A stretch of 20,095 nt of DNA from a virus: IMG/VR virus record IMGVR_UViG_3300032282_000208, positions 1 through 20,095 of that record; one strand, given 5' to 3'. The first letter of the stretch is position 1. The number at the start of each line of letters is the position of its first letter. The position numbers and the translations under genes were made by a program. Under the pieces are notes generated by a model. It searched no databases. It saw nothing but the letters and a program-made list of their open reading frames with translations, and was not told the DNA's origin. Shown piece after piece: positions 5,274 to 10,613 of the stretch.

Positions 5274-5366
5274 TCACACCAAACTCCATGCAATCATGTA
5301 CGTGCCAAAGATAACGAAAGCCGCTATACAGGCCGCCGCAATCAATGCTTCAGCCCAGTTTTTCAT
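5274..5366 (-). CDS. 30-residue single-span membrane peptide
   Basis: The frame ATG...TGA encodes MKNWAEALIAAACIAAFVIF followed by GTYMIAWSLV, essentially one hydrophobic helix after a short charged N-terminus. The ATG overlaps the stop of the upstream fibre gene by one base (TAATG), and the next gene starts 3 nt after its stop. This placement, with no other explanation for the roughly 95-nt interval, supports it as a real gene. Small one-span peptides beside holin genes are often lysis effectors or regulators, but that is inference. It is too short for most gene callers. Confidence 0.65.
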   Translation of the reverse strand: MKNWAEALIAAACIAAFVIFGTYMIAWSLV

Positions 5367-6667
5367 TACACAGCTACCCTGCGAATGGCGCGAACGGGAA
5401 AAGCTTGACTTTTACCTCCATAATAAACGCTTTGCGTTCCGGGATTAAAATATTGATGCCAAGCTTTAGTTGAAGTAGATTCGGTACTAGACCAGTAAAC
5501 GCCACCGGGCGATCCTGAATAATCAAAAGCCTCCGCATTTCCAGATTGAAAAATTGTTGCGGATGTTCGGTTGGGCGATTTAGGGCTATTTGTGTAAGTA
5601 GTGTTTAGTGGTTCTGGGGATACCGCATTTGCATTTGAACCAGAACTTGTTTGGTTGTTATTAGTTGTTGGTTTTAAAAAGAAGTAGCACACTTCCAACT
5701 CATTTTTAGCGGGCATATACCAATCTGAATAACCACCTGTTACCAAATCAGAACAGAAATAAGCCGCAGGGAAAATAGTTGAGCTTCCTGCGGCAACCAT
5801 ATCTGCTGTGTTTTGAGGCCCGTTAATATTGCTATCCGCACCAGAAACTGCTGATAGTGTTCCCGTCATCCAAGATAACGTGCTTTGCCCAGATGATTTT
5901 GGAGCAACAACTAGATTATGCGTTGCTGTACCACTAACCCCAATTTGCCCTGCGTAGTAACCACCTTGGTATGCTTGTCCAATAGCCAGTTGAGTTGTAA
6001 TGCTATTACTTGCCGCACTTGCGGCCCCTGTTCCAATGGCGTTTGTAGCCGTAACGGTAAATGTATAAGATGTTCCACCAGTCAAACCACTGACAGTCAC
6101 AGTACCAGAACCCGCCTGACTCAATGTGCCAGTAACACCCCCGGGCGATGAGGTGGCTGTATAGGTTGTAATTGTTGAACCACCGTCACTTGCTGGCGCA
6201 GTGTATGCAACAGTTGCTGTTGTTGCGTCTGTAGCAGTTGCTGTACCGATTGTTGGAGCGCCGGGAACATTTGCTGTAGTAATACTATTTGAAGACCCGC
6301 TTGATGGGCCTGTACCTGCACCGTTTGTTGCAAATACTGAGAATGTGTAAGAAGTATTTGCCGCCAAACCAGTCACACTAATAGGCGAAGTTGCGCTTGT
6401 ACCTTGAATACCGCTAGGAGATGACGTAGCTGTGTATCCTGTAATAGACGCACTGCCTGTATCAGTAGGCGCAGTAAAGGGAACAGATGCAGTTAGCACC
6501 GACACAGTAGCCGTACCAATCGTAGGAGCGCCGGGGCTTCTAGGCCAAATACCTTGCTTAACGTAGTTTGATACTTGATTGAGCGTCCAAATACCTTTAG
6601 CCACCGTTGTTGTTGGAGCCGTTGGGTTCTTGGTAATAATTCCACCGGGATACTGTTTGATACTCAT
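5366..6667 (-). CDS. Receptor-binding-type fibre protein: two fibronectin-III domains plus DUF1566-like lectin domain (paralogue A)
   Basis: The 433-residue protein has an N-terminal tip with the motif GIWTLNQVSNYVKQGIWP (25-42), often seen on phage tail proteins. Two fibronectin type III domains follow at about 46-131 and 136-225; each begins GAPTIGTAT and ends near SNSITT. A C-terminal domain (229-433) shows the DUF1566/Lcl hallmarks GGYSDWYMPAKNELEVCY, YWSSTE and VRAIRRVAV. This is a C-type-lectin-related fold thought to bind ligands. Two shorter paralogues with a single Fn3 domain are encoded at 8737 and 9696. The stretch between YWSSTE and VRAIRR differs strongly among the three and is probably the binding face. 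The gene follows the APS kinase gene by 12 nt and has a TTGGAGTT ribosome site. Confidence 0.85.
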   Translation of the reverse strand: MSIKQYPGGIITKNPTAPTTTVAKGIWTLNQVSNYVKQGIWPRSPGAPTIGTATVSVLTASVPFTAPTDTGSASITGYTATSSPSGIQGTSATSPISVTGLAANTSYTFSVFATNGAGTGPSSGSSNSITTANVPGAPTIGTATATDATTATVAYTAPASDGGSTITTYTATSSPGGVTGTLSQAGSGTVTVSGLTGGTSYTFTVTATNAIGTGAASAASNSITTQLAIGQAYQGGYYAGQIGVSGTATHNLVVAPKSSGQSTLSWMTGTLSAVSGADSNINGPQNTADMVAAGSSTIFPAAYFCSDLVTGGYSDWYMPAKNELEVCYFFLKPTTNNNQTSSGSNANAVSPEPLNTTYTNSPKSPNRTSATIFQSGNAEAFDYSGSPGGVYWSSTESTSTKAWHQYFNPGTQSVYYGGKSQAFPVRAIRRVAV

Positions 6668-6679
6668 GTCAACTCCAAT

Positions 6680-7468
6680 TTATCCTACGCCCATTTGCTT
6701 GCGTATCTTGGTTGCTGAGATAGCGTGTGTAGCATCGTCAAAAGACTCTTGCTCAATCTTATAGCCCACATCTCTGCCGTATGTAATGTTCACTACGTTT
6801 GGCACAAGCTGAATTTCGTATTGGCCCTGATATAAAGGGTCAAGATCACGCTTGATAAAGTCTTTAACCTGATTAGCCGCAAAGGGGTTTGAACCGTTCC
6901 AGCCCTGACAATCTCTAATCTGAATAACAACCTGACCAGTCTTTGCCAGTGCTCTTTCAAACAATTTACGGTGGCCTTCATGCCAAGGTTGCCATCTGCC
7001 CAGCATCTGCACGGTTTCTTTCTGCCAATCAAAGACAGGGCGCTGGCGGTTGTCCAAGATGTGCGCGGCAATGAACTCACCCCACTTCTCTGACTTCTGC
7101 TCAGTGATCCTAAAGTCATACTGCTCTGGCGCAATAAACACCTTATTAGTATCTTCAAAACGACCTTGATTGATGGTGTCAACCCACACAGTCCAATCAG
7201 CTTTAAAGTTGTTACGCATCTCAACCAGAGGGGCAACAAAGTCGCAGATCACATAGTCTACATCGTAGCTGTCAGCCAACTCACGCATCCGAAGGCTCTG
7301 GCGAATACGGCCTTCGTGGGAGAAATCCCAGTCGTTGTACTTCTTACGCACATCATCGGCATTGAGCCACATGACTGTCTTGCGGTCGTTTTGCAAGTGT
7401 TCAAGAATGTGTTGTGCAAGGTAAGTTTTACCAGCACCGGGCAAGCCCATGATTAGAATTCTTTTCAT
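6680..7468 (-). CDS. APS kinase fused to an HxGH nucleotidyltransferase domain
   Basis: Residues 1 to about 140 look like adenylylsulfate kinase, which phosphorylates APS to the sulfate donor PAPS. Visible are a Walker A loop GLPGAGKT (8-15), NADDVRKKYNDWDFS (36-50, matching the kinase DGDxxR...GFS element) and the Arg-rich helix GRIRQSLRMRELA. Residues of about 150-262 form a second Rossmann-type domain with GRWQPWHEGH (157-166, HxGH) and ISATKIR (250-256). These are hallmarks of the nucleotidyltransferase superfamily (NMNAT, cytidylyltransferase, ATP sulfurylase). A GRD sequence at 231-233 recalls ATP sulfurylase, but ISxTxIR points to the NMNAT/cytidylyltransferase branch, so the substrate is uncertain. 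The gene overlaps the sulfotransferase stop (ATGA), and the pair is probably functionally linked. The P-loop kinase call is strong; the second activity is open. Confidence 0.88.
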   Translation of the reverse strand: MKRILIMGLPGAGKTYLAQHILEHLQNDRKTVMWLNADDVRKKYNDWDFSHEGRIRQSLRMRELADSYDVDYVICDFVAPLVEMRNNFKADWTVWVDTINQGRFEDTNKVFIAPEQYDFRITEQKSEKWGEFIAAHILDNRQRPVFDWQKETVQMLGRWQPWHEGHRKLFERALAKTGQVVIQIRDCQGWNGSNPFAANQVKDFIKRDLDPLYQGQYEIQLVPNVVNITYGRDVGYKIEQESFDDATHAISATKIRKQMGVG

Positions 7469-8286
7469 CCCTTGACCTTGTAAAGTTGTTTGATTGAAAA
7501 CTCTGGTGCTGGTGTGCGCCAGAACTCTTTACCACTGTATTTTTCCCACACTGACTTTGGCAGGATGGATGGGCGCTCTTGCCATGTCACTTCTTTTCTG
7601 ACTGTGTGCAGGCTCTTCATGTTCAACGCTTTGTCAAACACTTCGTTGTCGTACTCAACATTCTTAAAGTCGTGGTCGTAATACGGTTTGTTGATAAAGC
7701 CGTACAGTTCCCGCATTACACCTTCAGTGTGTTTACACAACGACTCATACTCAACCAACATAATCATGTCGGGGTTTAACAGTAAGCCTTCTTCCAAGAA
7801 GTAATATGGCTTGACCACTTGGCCTTCTTTTTTTACATCCATCAGGGCATCGCACCTTGTGGTGACTGTCTGCCTAGCTTCGTCATCTGTCAGGGTTGCA
7901 CCATACAAAGAATTCTTAGCCGCAATGCGCTCAAAGCTGTCCAATATCCAAGGCAAGTCACGTACACAACAAATGATCTTGGTCTGTGGGTAAAGGTCTT
8001 TGAGAAGAGATGTTTTGGATGTCCAGCCCCTGCTTGTGTCAAACACGGTGCTTGGCGTGACCGCTTTGTAGTAAGCATCAATTACATCTTTGAGTATCTG
8101 CTTGCGGCGGTCTTCATCTACTAGGTGGTTGCTCTCGCTTCCCGTAATGACATTGATGGTTGATGCCACCAAGCCTTGTACGGGGGAAGAAATGTCTGCG
8201 TAGAACTCAGGGTTCTGACGCAAGATAGCCGAGAGCAGGGTTGAACCTGACCTTGGCAAACCAGAGATGAAGAAGAACTCTTTCAT
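7465..8286 (-). CDS. PAPS-dependent sulfotransferase
   Basis: I place the start at ATG 8286, which overlaps the stop of the upstream gene (ATGA), giving 273 residues. A longer version would need a TTG at 8310, inside the previous gene. The N-terminus FFFISGLPRSGSTLLSAIL carries the 5'-phosphosulfate-binding loop (residues 8-18). CVRDLPWILDSFER (107-120) fits the 3'-phosphate-binding element with Arg109 and Ser117. Family members transfer sulfate from PAPS to sugars, lipids, proteins or small molecules. The acceptor cannot be deduced here. There is no membrane segment, so it acts in the host cytoplasm. It sits between a fibre-associated gene and the PAPS-forming kinase, all translationally coupled, which suggests a surface-glycan or virion-protein substrate (inference). 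Confidence 0.9.
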   Translation of the reverse strand: MKEFFFISGLPRSGSTLLSAILRQNPEFYADISSPVQGLVASTINVITGSESNHLVDEDRRKQILKDVIDAYYKAVTPSTVFDTSRGWTSKTSLLKDLYPQTKIICCVRDLPWILDSFERIAAKNSLYGATLTDDEARQTVTTRCDALMDVKKEGQVVKPYYFLEEGLLLNPDMIMLVEYESLCKHTEGVMRELYGFINKPYYDHDFKNVEYDNEVFDKALNMKSLHTVRKEVTWQERPSILPKSVWEKYSGKEFWRTPAPEFSIKQLYKVKG

Positions 8287-8717
8287 GCTTGAGCAGTCTG
8301 AGCGACCCAATTGACTGTAGCTTCATCCCATTCGTAACGCACATTACCACCGTTCATAATTGCATCAACGGGTCTTGGTACAGGCGCACTCCATGTCATT
8401 GTGTCTGGGTAACCAATCCAAGATGGGTAAGGTCTACGGGCTTCGTGTTCTGCGGTTTTGGCGGCGTTAAACTCGGCTTCAGTTAAGACTTGCAAAACAC
8501 CCGCAATGGTAGTGTCGGCATCGTCATCGCAAGTGCCATAGTATCTTGGAGCACGGAGGTATGTGCCATCAGGCGCTGTGGATACAGGCCATGTAGAACT
8601 GTCGTGCCAAATATGAGTCCACCCTTTAACAACAGGCATTGATGGGCCTGTGCGCTGTGGCTCGGCTGTGCAGACTATTTTAGTTACTGCGTCTACTTCG
8701 GTTATGCAAATGTACAT
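8283..8717 (-). CDS. Fibre-associated protein with Trp/Pro-rich C-terminus
   Basis: The 144-residue protein has a beta-like N-terminal half (MYICITEVDAVTKIVC...) and a C-terminal half with the pattern RRPYPSWIGYPDTMTWSAPV, then PRPVDAIMNGGN, then YEWDEATVNWV. Short proteins with PSW...W.AP.P.P...Y.WDE...W are common next to phage tail fibre genes, where they may be fibre accessory or assembly proteins. That role is inference from context. A strong AAAGGAG site lies 7 nt before the ATG. Its stop overlaps the sulfotransferase start, physically tying the fibre block to the sulfation pair. Confidence 0.75.
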   Translation of the reverse strand: MYICITEVDAVTKIVCTAEPQRTGPSMPVVKGWTHIWHDSSTWPVSTAPDGTYLRAPRYYGTCDDDADTTIAGVLQVLTEAEFNAAKTAEHEARRPYPSWIGYPDTMTWSAPVPRPVDAIMNGGNVRYEWDEATVNWVAQTAQA

Positions 8718-8736: not shown

Positions 8737-9687
8737 TTAAACTGCAACTCTACGAGTTGCTCGGACAACAATCGGGCCGCCGTCTTTAAAGTGATAGGCT
8801 TGATAGCCGTTATTAAAGCGTGGCCCCCAAGCAAATGTTGCAGATTGCTCGGTACTAGACCAGTAATAATAATTACCCGAGCCAGTAAAGGCTTCCGAGT
8901 TACCCAATTGAAAAACTGTTGCTGAAGTTTGCGCTGGATTACCATTTGTGTAGTTACTTGTCCTAGCAGGAACAGCATTTGGGTTTATGCCATACGAGGT
9001 GTTATTACTATCTGTAGTTGGTTTTAAATTGTAATAGCAGACTTCCAACTCATTCTTAGCTGGCATATACCAATCAGAATAACCACCTGTTATTAAAGTG
9101 TCGCAAAACCATGCCGCTGGATAAGCAGTTGAATTACCGTCCGCCACCATGTCGGCAGTATTCTGCGGGCCGTTAATATTACTATCCGCACCGGGAGTAG
9201 CGGTTGATGTGTTTTTCCATGTTAAGGATGAACTTTGTGCAGTGGACTTTGGCCCAATCACAAGGTTGTAATCGGCAATACTGTTACCAGTAGTTGATAT
9301 TTGACCTGCATAGAATCCGCCGCCATAAGCATCACCTATTGCCAACGCAGTTGTAATGCTATTACTTGCCGCGCTTGCTGGCCCAGTACCAGTGGAATTT
9401 GTGGCGTTTACTGTAAATGTGTATGCTGTGTTTGAAGACAATCCTGTCATAGAGATTGGAGAAGATGCGCCTGTACCAGTAATACCACCGGGGCTTGAGG
9501 TGGCTGTATAAGTCACCGTTGCGGGATACCCAAGATTTGCAGGGGCTGTAAAAGCAACTGTGGCTGTAGTAGTGCCTGTAGCTGTAGCTGTACCAATCGT
9601 TGGCGCACCGGGGACTGCGGGCCAAATGCTTTGACCCTTAGCTTGCATCTGCTGAGTGACCGTCCAGATTCCAGAAAAATTAGGCAT
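8737..9687 (-). CDS. Fibronectin-III / DUF1566-like lectin fibre protein (paralogue B)
   Basis: The 316-residue protein begins with the tip motif SGIWTVTQQMQAKGQSIWP (5-23), shared with paralogue A. One Fn3 domain (about 26-113) and a DUF1566-like domain (117-316) follow. The latter carries GGYSDWYMPAKNELEVCYYN, YYWSSTE and VRATRRVAV. It is adjacent to paralogue C and closer to it in length, but its tip motif and phrases such as GADSNINGPQNTADMV match paralogue A. An AAGGA site overlaps the stop of paralogue C. The likely job is adsorption to a host surface ligand; the fold and role are inferred from motif patterns. Confidence 0.85.
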   Translation of the reverse strand: MPNFSGIWTVTQQMQAKGQSIWPAVPGAPTIGTATATGTTTATVAFTAPANLGYPATVTYTATSSPGGITGTGASSPISMTGLSSNTAYTFTVNATNSTGTGPASAASNSITTALAIGDAYGGGFYAGQISTTGNSIADYNLVIGPKSTAQSSSLTWKNTSTATPGADSNINGPQNTADMVADGNSTAYPAAWFCDTLITGGYSDWYMPAKNELEVCYYNLKPTTDSNNTSYGINPNAVPARTSNYTNGNPAQTSATVFQLGNSEAFTGSGNYYYWSSTEQSATFAWGPRFNNGYQAYHFKDGGPIVVRATRRVAV

Positions 9688-9695
9688 ATGTTTCC

Positions 9696-10613
9696 TTAGA
9701 CTGCTACTCTGCGAATTGCACGAACTCGGTAAGAAAAGTTCTTTCCGTAGCTGTACTGGTTGCCAGTATTAAAACTTTGTAGCCACGCATTGCCAACGTA
9801 AGAAGCAAACTCAGTGCTAGACCAGTAACCTAAAGTAGTAAAAGCTTCTGCACCACCACTTATAAAGTTTGTCGCAGAGGTTGTCGGTGGGTTGCCACTT
9901 GTGTAATTGCTTGTCCTAGCAGGGACTGCATTTGAATTAGTTCCAACACCAGTATTATTAGGTTGTGTTCCCGGTTTTAAATTGTAATAACATACTTCTA
10001 ATTCATTTTGAGCTGGCATATACCAATCTGAATAACCACCCGCACTAACTGCCACACAAAATTGTGCCGCAGGGTGGAGTATGTTGTTCATGTTTGAAGT
10101 GTTTGTAGGCCCATTGATAACTGAAGCAGTTCCCGTTGTGCCAGTGGCTACTGTTTTCCATTTCAACGTACTTTGTGCAGAAGAAACTGGCCCAACAACT
10201 AAGTTGTAATCAGCTACGCTATTGCCTGATGTCGAAATTTGACCAGCATAATAACCACCACCGTATGCTATGCCAATAGCACCGGGGGCTGAAGATGGGG
10301 TTACTGAATTACTAGCCGCACTTAAAGCACTAGGGCCATAAGCATTGGTAGCAAATACTTTAAATGTGTACGCTGTACCGTTAGATAACCCACTTACAGT
10401 AATAGGAGAAGATGCACCCGTACCAATCAGACCGCCCGGTGTTGAGACAATTGAGTACCCCGTAATAGCGCCACCGCCCACATTAGCGGGTGCAGTAAAG
10501 GTTACAGATGCAGAGGCATTTCCACCCGTAGCCGTGCCAATGGTAGGCGCGTCAGGGACTAGCAGGGCGTTGTACCCCGGCAAAACAATACCAGCTTGAT
10601 AGCGCGAACTCAT
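9696..10613 (-). CDS. Fibronectin-III / DUF1566-like lectin fibre protein (paralogue C)
   Basis: The 305-residue protein has one Fn3 domain (about 21-106; DAPTIGTATG ... AASNSVT) and a C-terminal DUF1566-like domain (114-305) with GGYSDWYMPAQNELEVCYYN, YWSSTE and VRAIRRVAV. Unlike paralogues A and B it lacks the GIWT...WP tip motif and starts MSSRYQAGIVLPGYNALL, so it may attach to the virion differently. The segment between YWSSTE and the terminal VRAIRR (about 269-295) is aromatic- and Asn-rich and has little in common with the other two. The ribosome site is AAGGGG. It is the first of the three lectin-type genes to be transcribed. Confidence 0.85.
   Translation of the reverse strand: MSSRYQAGIVLPGYNALLVPDAPTIGTATGGNASASVTFTAPANVGGGAITGYSIVSTPGGLIGTGASSPITVSGLSNGTAYTFKVFATNAYGPSALSAASNSVTPSSAPGAIGIAYGGGYYAGQISTSGNSVADYNLVVGPVSSAQSTLKWKTVATGTTGTASVINGPTNTSNMNNILHPAAQFCVAVSAGGYSDWYMPAQNELEVCYYNLKPGTQPNNTGVGTNSNAVPARTSNYTSGNPPTTSATNFISGGAEAFTTLGYWSSTEFASYVGNAWLQSFNTGNQYSYGKNFSYRVRAIRRVAV

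Follow-up and report, generated by a model that had tools for sequence, protein, structure and literature searches.

Does a kinase-sulfotransferase gene pair lodged in a phage fibre operon make and use PAPS, and what would it sulfate? The window analyzed is the whole of a 20,095-base stretch, record IMGVR_UViG_3300032282_000208, from a freshwater phage. Within its structural/fibre operon, on the minus strand, P0003 is followed by P0002 and then by P0001, and all three reading frames were confirmed. The features of the locus are:

6680-7468, minus strand: P0001 (262 aa), fusion of a kinase and a nucleotidylyltransferase (NTase), proposed miniature PAPS synthase
7049-7468, minus strand: APS-kinase-like P-loop domain of P0001, residues 1-140
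6683-7033, minus strand: compact NTase domain of P0001, residues 146-262 (~115 aa)
7465-8286, minus strand: P0002 (273 aa), sulfotransferase
8283-8717, minus strand: P0003 (144 aa), fibre-associated gene
7465-7468, minus strand: 4-base ATGA start/stop overlap, P0002 to P0001, read from the sequence
8283-8286, minus strand: 4-base ATGA start/stop overlap, P0003 to P0002, read from the sequence
8737-9687, minus strand: Fn3 + Lcl_C (lectin-type) fibre gene directly upstream of P0003 (Lcl_C 41 bits, fn3 26.4 bits)
9696-10613, minus strand: second upstream Fn3 + Lcl_C fibre gene (Lcl_C 49.2 bits, fn3 33.8 bits)
5366-6667, minus strand: downstream Fn3 + Lcl_C fibre gene, 12 bases past the end of P0001 (fn3 65.1 bits, Lcl_C 36 bits)

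The sequence-only reading had described two ATGA overlaps and a position between lectin-type fibre genes. Both overlaps are there, and profile searches placed Fn3 + Lcl_C genes on either flank; these three fibre genes form one family. Lectin domains of the Fn3/Lcl_C type can be targets of diversity-generating retroelements, and among the frames of the window none was noticed that encodes a reverse transcriptase. P0003 gave a 28-bit match to phrog_7759, over its C-terminal third, and is probably of a fibre assembly or chaperone type. A defence role for the block was considered and dropped, PADLOC having returned weak P-loop matches only.

Domains of the sulfotransferase and of the kinase-NTase fusion

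P0002 scored 60.1 bits against Sulfotransfer_3 (PF13469; cut-off 27) and 34.8 bits, also over the cut-off, against Sulfotransfer_1. Its PAPS loop, proposed earlier from the letters and here confirmed, reads SGLPRSGST, and its 3′-phosphate motif is R109...S117. Across 13 divergent phage sulfotransferases P11-T16 (PRSGST), R86, R109 and S117 (P0002 numbering) are invariant. Judged by profile and by PAPS-binding motifs, P0002 is a member of the PAPS-dependent sulfotransferase family Sulfotransfer_3. Among solved structures tyrosylprotein sulfotransferases come nearest, with a match so weak (E about 0.001) that it does not fix the acceptor.

Residues 4-90 of P0001 matched APS_kinase (PF01583) with 39.2 bits (cut-off 21.1), in an alignment that spans only positions 5-94 of the 152 in the profile. 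TIGR00455 gave 28.1 bits, under its cut-off of 138.7, and phrog_10255, annotated as 'kinase' only, matched full-length P0001 (1.2e-50). An AlphaFold2 model of P0001, with 62 homologues as input, had a mean pLDDT of 93. When this model was searched against the PDB, the first 46 matches were all APS kinases, as were 49 of the first 50 listed; the best TM against these kinases, normalised by target, was 0.74. As modelled, the N-terminal half of P0001 has the APS kinase fold. The sequence-only reading had called this half APS-kinase-like, and it is borne out by the structural comparison, which points to a kinase with an APS site and lists almost only APS kinases; the PF01583 match agrees with it over part of the profile.

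The kinase motifs (Walker A GLPGAGKT, D38, R41, F49, R54, F77-P80 and R85) are kept in 58-62 of the 62 homologues, and the conserved residues of this domain are mostly common to canonical haloarchaeal APS kinase domains. On motif comparison the canonical APS-binding lid, KGxYxxAxxGxIxxFTGIxxPxExP, is present in the haloarchaeal relatives and absent from P0001, which is therefore classed as APS-kinase-like and not as a canonical CysC.

A second catalytic-type domain, overlooked in the first reading, occupies residues ~146-262 of P0001. Residues 157-184 matched CTP_transf_like (PF01467) with 22.6 bits (cut-off 21). The P0001 motifs are GRWQPWHEGH, R185, NPF, YGRDVGY and ISATKIR; over the 62 homologues the pattern becomes GRWQPxHxGH, R185, NPF, YGR(D/G)VGY and SATxxR. 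Thirteen residues are found in 62/62 homologues (G157, R158, Q160, P161, H163, G165, H166, N224, G231, R232, V234, G235 and R256). HxGH is invariant, SxTxxR (S-A/G-T-xx-R) is present in nearly all, and GR, kept in 62/62, occurs as GRD in 34 and as GRG in 24. Human ATP sulfurylase cannot do without its HxGH pair (PMC11697783), and the elements named for the active site of ATP sulfurylase, which line it in Sat, include GRD and SGTxxR (PMC3779200); the P0001 counterparts are HEGH, GRD and SATKIR. The NTase lacks the QXRN loop of ATP sulfurylase and has GRWQ in its place.

The profile search gave no PF01747 (Sat) match in P0001, and Sat membership was rejected: hhalign of 73 NTase against 3 Sat sequences returned a probability of 0.8%, with the likeness limited to HxGH. 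In sequence comparison the closest match to the NTase is archaeal NadM-type NMN adenylyltransferase, over the first ~75 residues of the NTase (GRFQPFHxGH, NPF). The NMNAT segment that follows is absent, and NadM membership was also rejected (TIGR01527 28.3 bits, cut-off 181.2). When the NTase was modelled alone (AlphaFold2, pLDDT 90), the nearest solved families were NMNAT, PPAT and ATP sulfurylase, at a TM of about 0.5. A structure search with this domain gave no match under E 0.001, so that fold comparison leaves the substrate undecided. The NTase is best read as a putative ATP sulfurylase that belongs to neither the Sat nor the CysD family, an activity that is suggested by genome context.

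The block in related and distant phages

The earlier reading had left the co-occurrence of the pair with fibre genes to a survey of related phages, and there the block proved to be conserved. Among 66 distinct phage loci with a P0002-type sulfotransferase, which are mutually related and not independent trials, position -2, counted from the sulfotransferase, holds the Fn3/Lcl_C fibre family in 63, position -1 the P0003 family in 62, and position +1 an APS-kinase-like gene in 61. In 44 of these the kinase is fused to the NTase; in the other 17, about a quarter of the loci, it is a short, single-domain protein of ~145 aa that is 41-53% identical to the N-terminal half of P0001. The sulfotransferase beside a short kinase is still ~90% identical to the P0002 type. 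Since the short kinase replaces the fusion while the sulfotransferase stays, the kinase seems exchangeable at the sulfotransferase boundary. The 4-base sulfotransferase/kinase overlap was kept in 73/76 distinct related loci, beside fused and short kinases alike, and is therefore not due to chance. No separate NTase was found on 16 contigs of kinase-only phages, all of them fragmentary, so that this absence carries little weight.

The block adjoins at least three different virion gene sets. In a second phage class a ~590-aa sulfotransferase gene is followed by several fibres, the kinase-NTase, rfaE2, an rfaE1-like gene and an epimerase gene. Neither Pfam nor the PDB gave an assignment for the C-terminal half of these long sulfotransferases (L050, 6328-7257; L079, 4848-5759). 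By eye this half resembles a TPR plus a glycosyltransferase domain; the glycosyltransferase identity is a lead, with no match in the PDB, and the TPR match is weak. In L050 (10783-12956), and also in L053, L054, L072 and L073, the rfaE2, rfaE1-like kinase and epimerase genes come directly after the kinase-NTase in the fibre operon. The L050 rfaE2 scored 170 bits against TIGR02199, just under the cut-off of 181.5, and the three genes possibly represent an ADP-heptose route in phages. On another phage contig (L079, 7501-11575), GT25, GT2-like and UDP-galactopyranose mutase genes lie beside the pair and two sulfotransferases.

The kinase-NTase also occurs in Casjensviridae, at about 39% identity, where a small protein encoded two genes upstream matches Sulfotransfer_4 just over the cut-off. 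A NADAR gene (L139, 4559-4999; L141, 4559-5002) separates this sulfotransferase-like gene from the kinase-NTase. A sulfotransferase over the PF13469/PF00685 cut-offs is carried by 12 of the 36 long phage records with a kinase-NTase, and the remaining 24 have no match over those cut-offs. Divergent sulfotransferase-like neighbours among these phages are a Sulfotransfer_2 protein in L268 and, at the level of motifs, candidates in L260 and L255; in the others none was recognised. The fibre/P0003 arrangement is not kept in the distant phages. Fibre coupling is a property of one phage group, strong there, and not of the enzyme family, since distant phages often lack a recognised sulfotransferase.

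Cellular relatives and their sources of APS

The kinase and NTase are common on SAR11 and SAR86 chromosomes and on haloarchaeal plasmids. The proposed tie between kinase, sulfotransferase and fibre thus stands for this phage group and fails as a general rule, in these replicons as in the 24/36 phage records. In SAR86 and part of SAR11 the kinase and the NTase are adjacent, separate genes. Sulfotransferases of families 1, 2 and 3, over the Pfam cut-off, lie at most three genes away in eight neighbourhoods (L145, L153, L158, L160, L163, L166, L190 and L212). No sulfotransferase is nearby in other neighbourhoods, for example L151, L167 and SAR11 dmdA-like regions. In SAR11 (L200, L208, L214 and similar) the split kinase and NTase genes are surrounded by genes that by eye are dmdA-like, metF-like and Rieske genes. 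CysQ removes PAP, the by-product of sulfotransferases, and in marine alphaproteobacteria (L172) a CysQ gene adjoins the pair (TIGR01331 292.6 bits, cut-off 228.8).

In the five haloarchaeal plasmid blocks examined, a sulfotransferase gene is accompanied by a fusion of a canonical, full-length APS kinase with the same NTase, and by a YqcI/YcgG gene. The kinase part scored 150.5 bits against PF01583 and lies above the TIGR00455 cut-off, the NTase part carries GRWQPLHDGH, IGRDVGY and ISGTETR, and the fusion matches phrog_10255 over both domains. The YqcI/YcgG family gene (L309, 7863-8609) is the third member of this block. On plasmid NC_007901 of Rhodoferax ferrireducens, genes for a Phage_tail_APC tail fibre assembly protein, a sulfotransferase and an adenylyl-sulfate kinase follow one another with the same 4-base overlap, the Phage_tail_APC gene holding the place of P0003. 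The Rhodoferax sulfotransferase and assembly gene have no BLAST similarity to their counterparts in the window. The kinase of this plasmid (L307, 6001-6582; 193 aa) has lost most of the NTase domain, apparently by a frameshift.

Other sources of APS are rare in the carriers. Among 40 genomes with the pair, Sat was found in 3, CysD in 2 others and neither in 35, an absence that is partly due to incompleteness, since most of these genomes are drafts. Sulfotransfer_3 (PF13469) proteins occur in 29 of the 40. The genome behind L213 (CP097973), titled complete, encodes two sulfotransferases and lacks both Sat and CysD. Of 151 genomes of the SAR86 order, 80 have the pair, 87 have Sulfotransfer_3 and 76 have both; Sat occurs in 1, as does CysD over the cut-off. 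Fisher's exact test on the SAR86-order counts gave about 1e-25, a figure inflated by genome incompleteness.

The single SAR86-order genome with CysD (G126) has sulfotransferases and lacks the pair. The two systems exchange places in one slot, uvrC-pgsA-cysD-cysNC in G126 versus uvrC-pgsA-kinase-NTase in L205, an exchange seen once, at a site that may be a hot spot for insertions. Both regions also hold a rare 257-aa nucleotidylyltransferase/cupin-like protein (60% identical). In another genome of this order (G047; L305, 1-1985) a sulfotransferase-like gene and a divergent Sat gene are arranged tail to tail.

Proposed pathway, alternatives and known systems

From these genes, domains, motifs and associations we infer both catalytic activities, the order of the steps and the acceptor. 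The C-terminal NTase would join sulfate to ATP to give APS, the N-terminal APS kinase domain would phosphorylate APS to PAPS, and the translationally coupled P0002 would use PAPS to sulfate an acceptor tied to the late-expressed Fn3/Lcl_C fibre module. Kinase-only phages would draw on host APS. We are confident that P0001 supplies PAPS in a general sense, and consider it probable that it is a single-chain miniature PAPS synthase, NTase step included, that feeds P0002. The earlier proposal, that the pair converts APS to PAPS, stands with respect to the APS kinase fold and is understated otherwise, because P0001 carries the NTase domain and so probably takes sulfate as its starting material instead of host APS. 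More broadly, we lean slightly towards the view that the NTase is a further class of ATP sulfurylase beside Sat and CysDN, which with APS kinase would form the smallest PAPS synthase known and serve sulfation in SAR86, SAR11, other streamlined ocean bacteria, haloarchaea and phages, the latter acting on their own fibres or fibre-linked glycans.

Three other accounts of P0001 were weighed. The kinase could make PAPS from APS delivered by a host ATP sulfurylase, the NTase being regulatory or dead. The 17/66 phage loci with an NTase-less kinase beside the sulfotransferase fit this account, as do the 16 fragmentary contigs of such phages with no NTase elsewhere, and APS kinases do exist with a fused ATP-sulfurylase-like domain whose role is unclear and for which ATP sulfurylase activity was not shown (PMC13213808 and references therein). 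A dead domain would hardly keep HxGH and SxTxxR invariant or nearly so in 62 homologues, however, and in SAR86 the NTase is a gene of its own, in genomes with sulfotransferases and without Sat or CysD; we regard the account as unlikely. A role in cofactor metabolism, in which an NMNAT- or PPAT-like adenylyltransferase plus a kinase would serve NAD or CoA synthesis and no sulfation, could draw on the closeness of the NTase to NadM-type NMNAT by sequence and to PPAT/NMNAT by fold, and on the NADAR gene of Casjensviridae. We judge it quite improbable: the NMNAT match stops after ~75 residues, where the next NMNAT segment is missing; by structure the kinase belongs with the APS kinases, and in haloarchaea it is canonical; and sulfotransferases of several families stand beside the pair in unrelated lineages. 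The NAD version is further weakened because the Sulfotransfer_4 gene lies in the same Casjensviridae block as NADAR. In the phosphoramidate pathway of Campylobacter a CysC homologue phosphorylates a CDP-linked group. This precedent, together with a kinase lid that differs from canonical APS kinases, would allow the pair to make another 3′-phosphonucleotide donor, whose group the 'sulfotransferase' then transfers. The CysQ neighbour, CysD-CysNC in the same slot and the occurrence of the NTase on one chain with a canonical APS kinase all indicate PAPS instead, and make such a donor very improbable.

With P0001 taken as a PAPS synthase, the acceptor would most likely be a virion glycan or side chain, and less likely a host surface glycan. 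The structural-operon location and the linkage to one fibre and one fibre-assembly type favour a virion component, which we name tentatively, with somewhat more doubt than confidence. The glycan genes of related loci allow either kind of glycan. For the same enzymes to act on a host surface glycan, masking the receptor or keeping progeny off cell debris, is a possibility that we hold in greater doubt. GT25 and UDP-galactopyranose mutase in L079, rfaE2, rfaE1-like and epimerase genes in L050, and lectin-type fibres adjoining the pair speak for it. Against it, the genes sit inside a structural operon and travel with one fibre (63/66) and one fibre-assembly type (62/66), and the Rhodoferax block holds a tail fibre assembly gene; a host acceptor is compatible with both.

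If the proposed pathway is true, many streamlined marine bacteria that seem unable to activate sulfate do so via an overlooked enzyme, and predictions of which ocean organisms make sulfated molecules change. Some phage genes annotated 'APS kinase' would be complete PAPS synthases, sulfation of virions or host surface by phages would become testable, and a small one-chain PAPS synthase would be of practical use in enzymatic sulfation.

Virus-borne APS kinases and phage sulfotransferases were already known separately. A search of the open literature, with subscription papers outside its scope, returned no description of a compact kinase-NTase fusion or of a phage fibre sulfation module. Virus-borne cysC genes and the sulfotransferases of cyanophages S-SKS1 and S-SRM01 are alike in being a phage-carried APS kinase or sulfotransferase, whereas here the two genes form an overlapping pair in a fibre cassette and the kinase bears an NTase domain. 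The Rhodoferax ferrireducens NC_007901 block shares gene order and the 4-base overlap, but has no BLAST similarity and a truncated NTase. Archaeal NadM resembles the first ~75 NTase residues and differs in the NMNAT segment that follows, missing here, and in the sulfation genome context. The CysD-CysNC complex occupies the same uvrC-pgsA slot and presumably yields the same product, PAPS, but CysD, a PAPS-reductase-like adenylyltransferase that the GTPase CysN drives, has no homology to the NTase. The metazoan PAPS synthases (PAPSS1/2) likewise combine, in one chain that feeds sulfotransferases, an N-terminal APS kinase and a C-terminal NTase-fold domain with HxGH; in P0001, by comparison, the C-terminal domain of ~115 aa is not of the Sat family and lacks QXRN, and the kinase is without the canonical lid.
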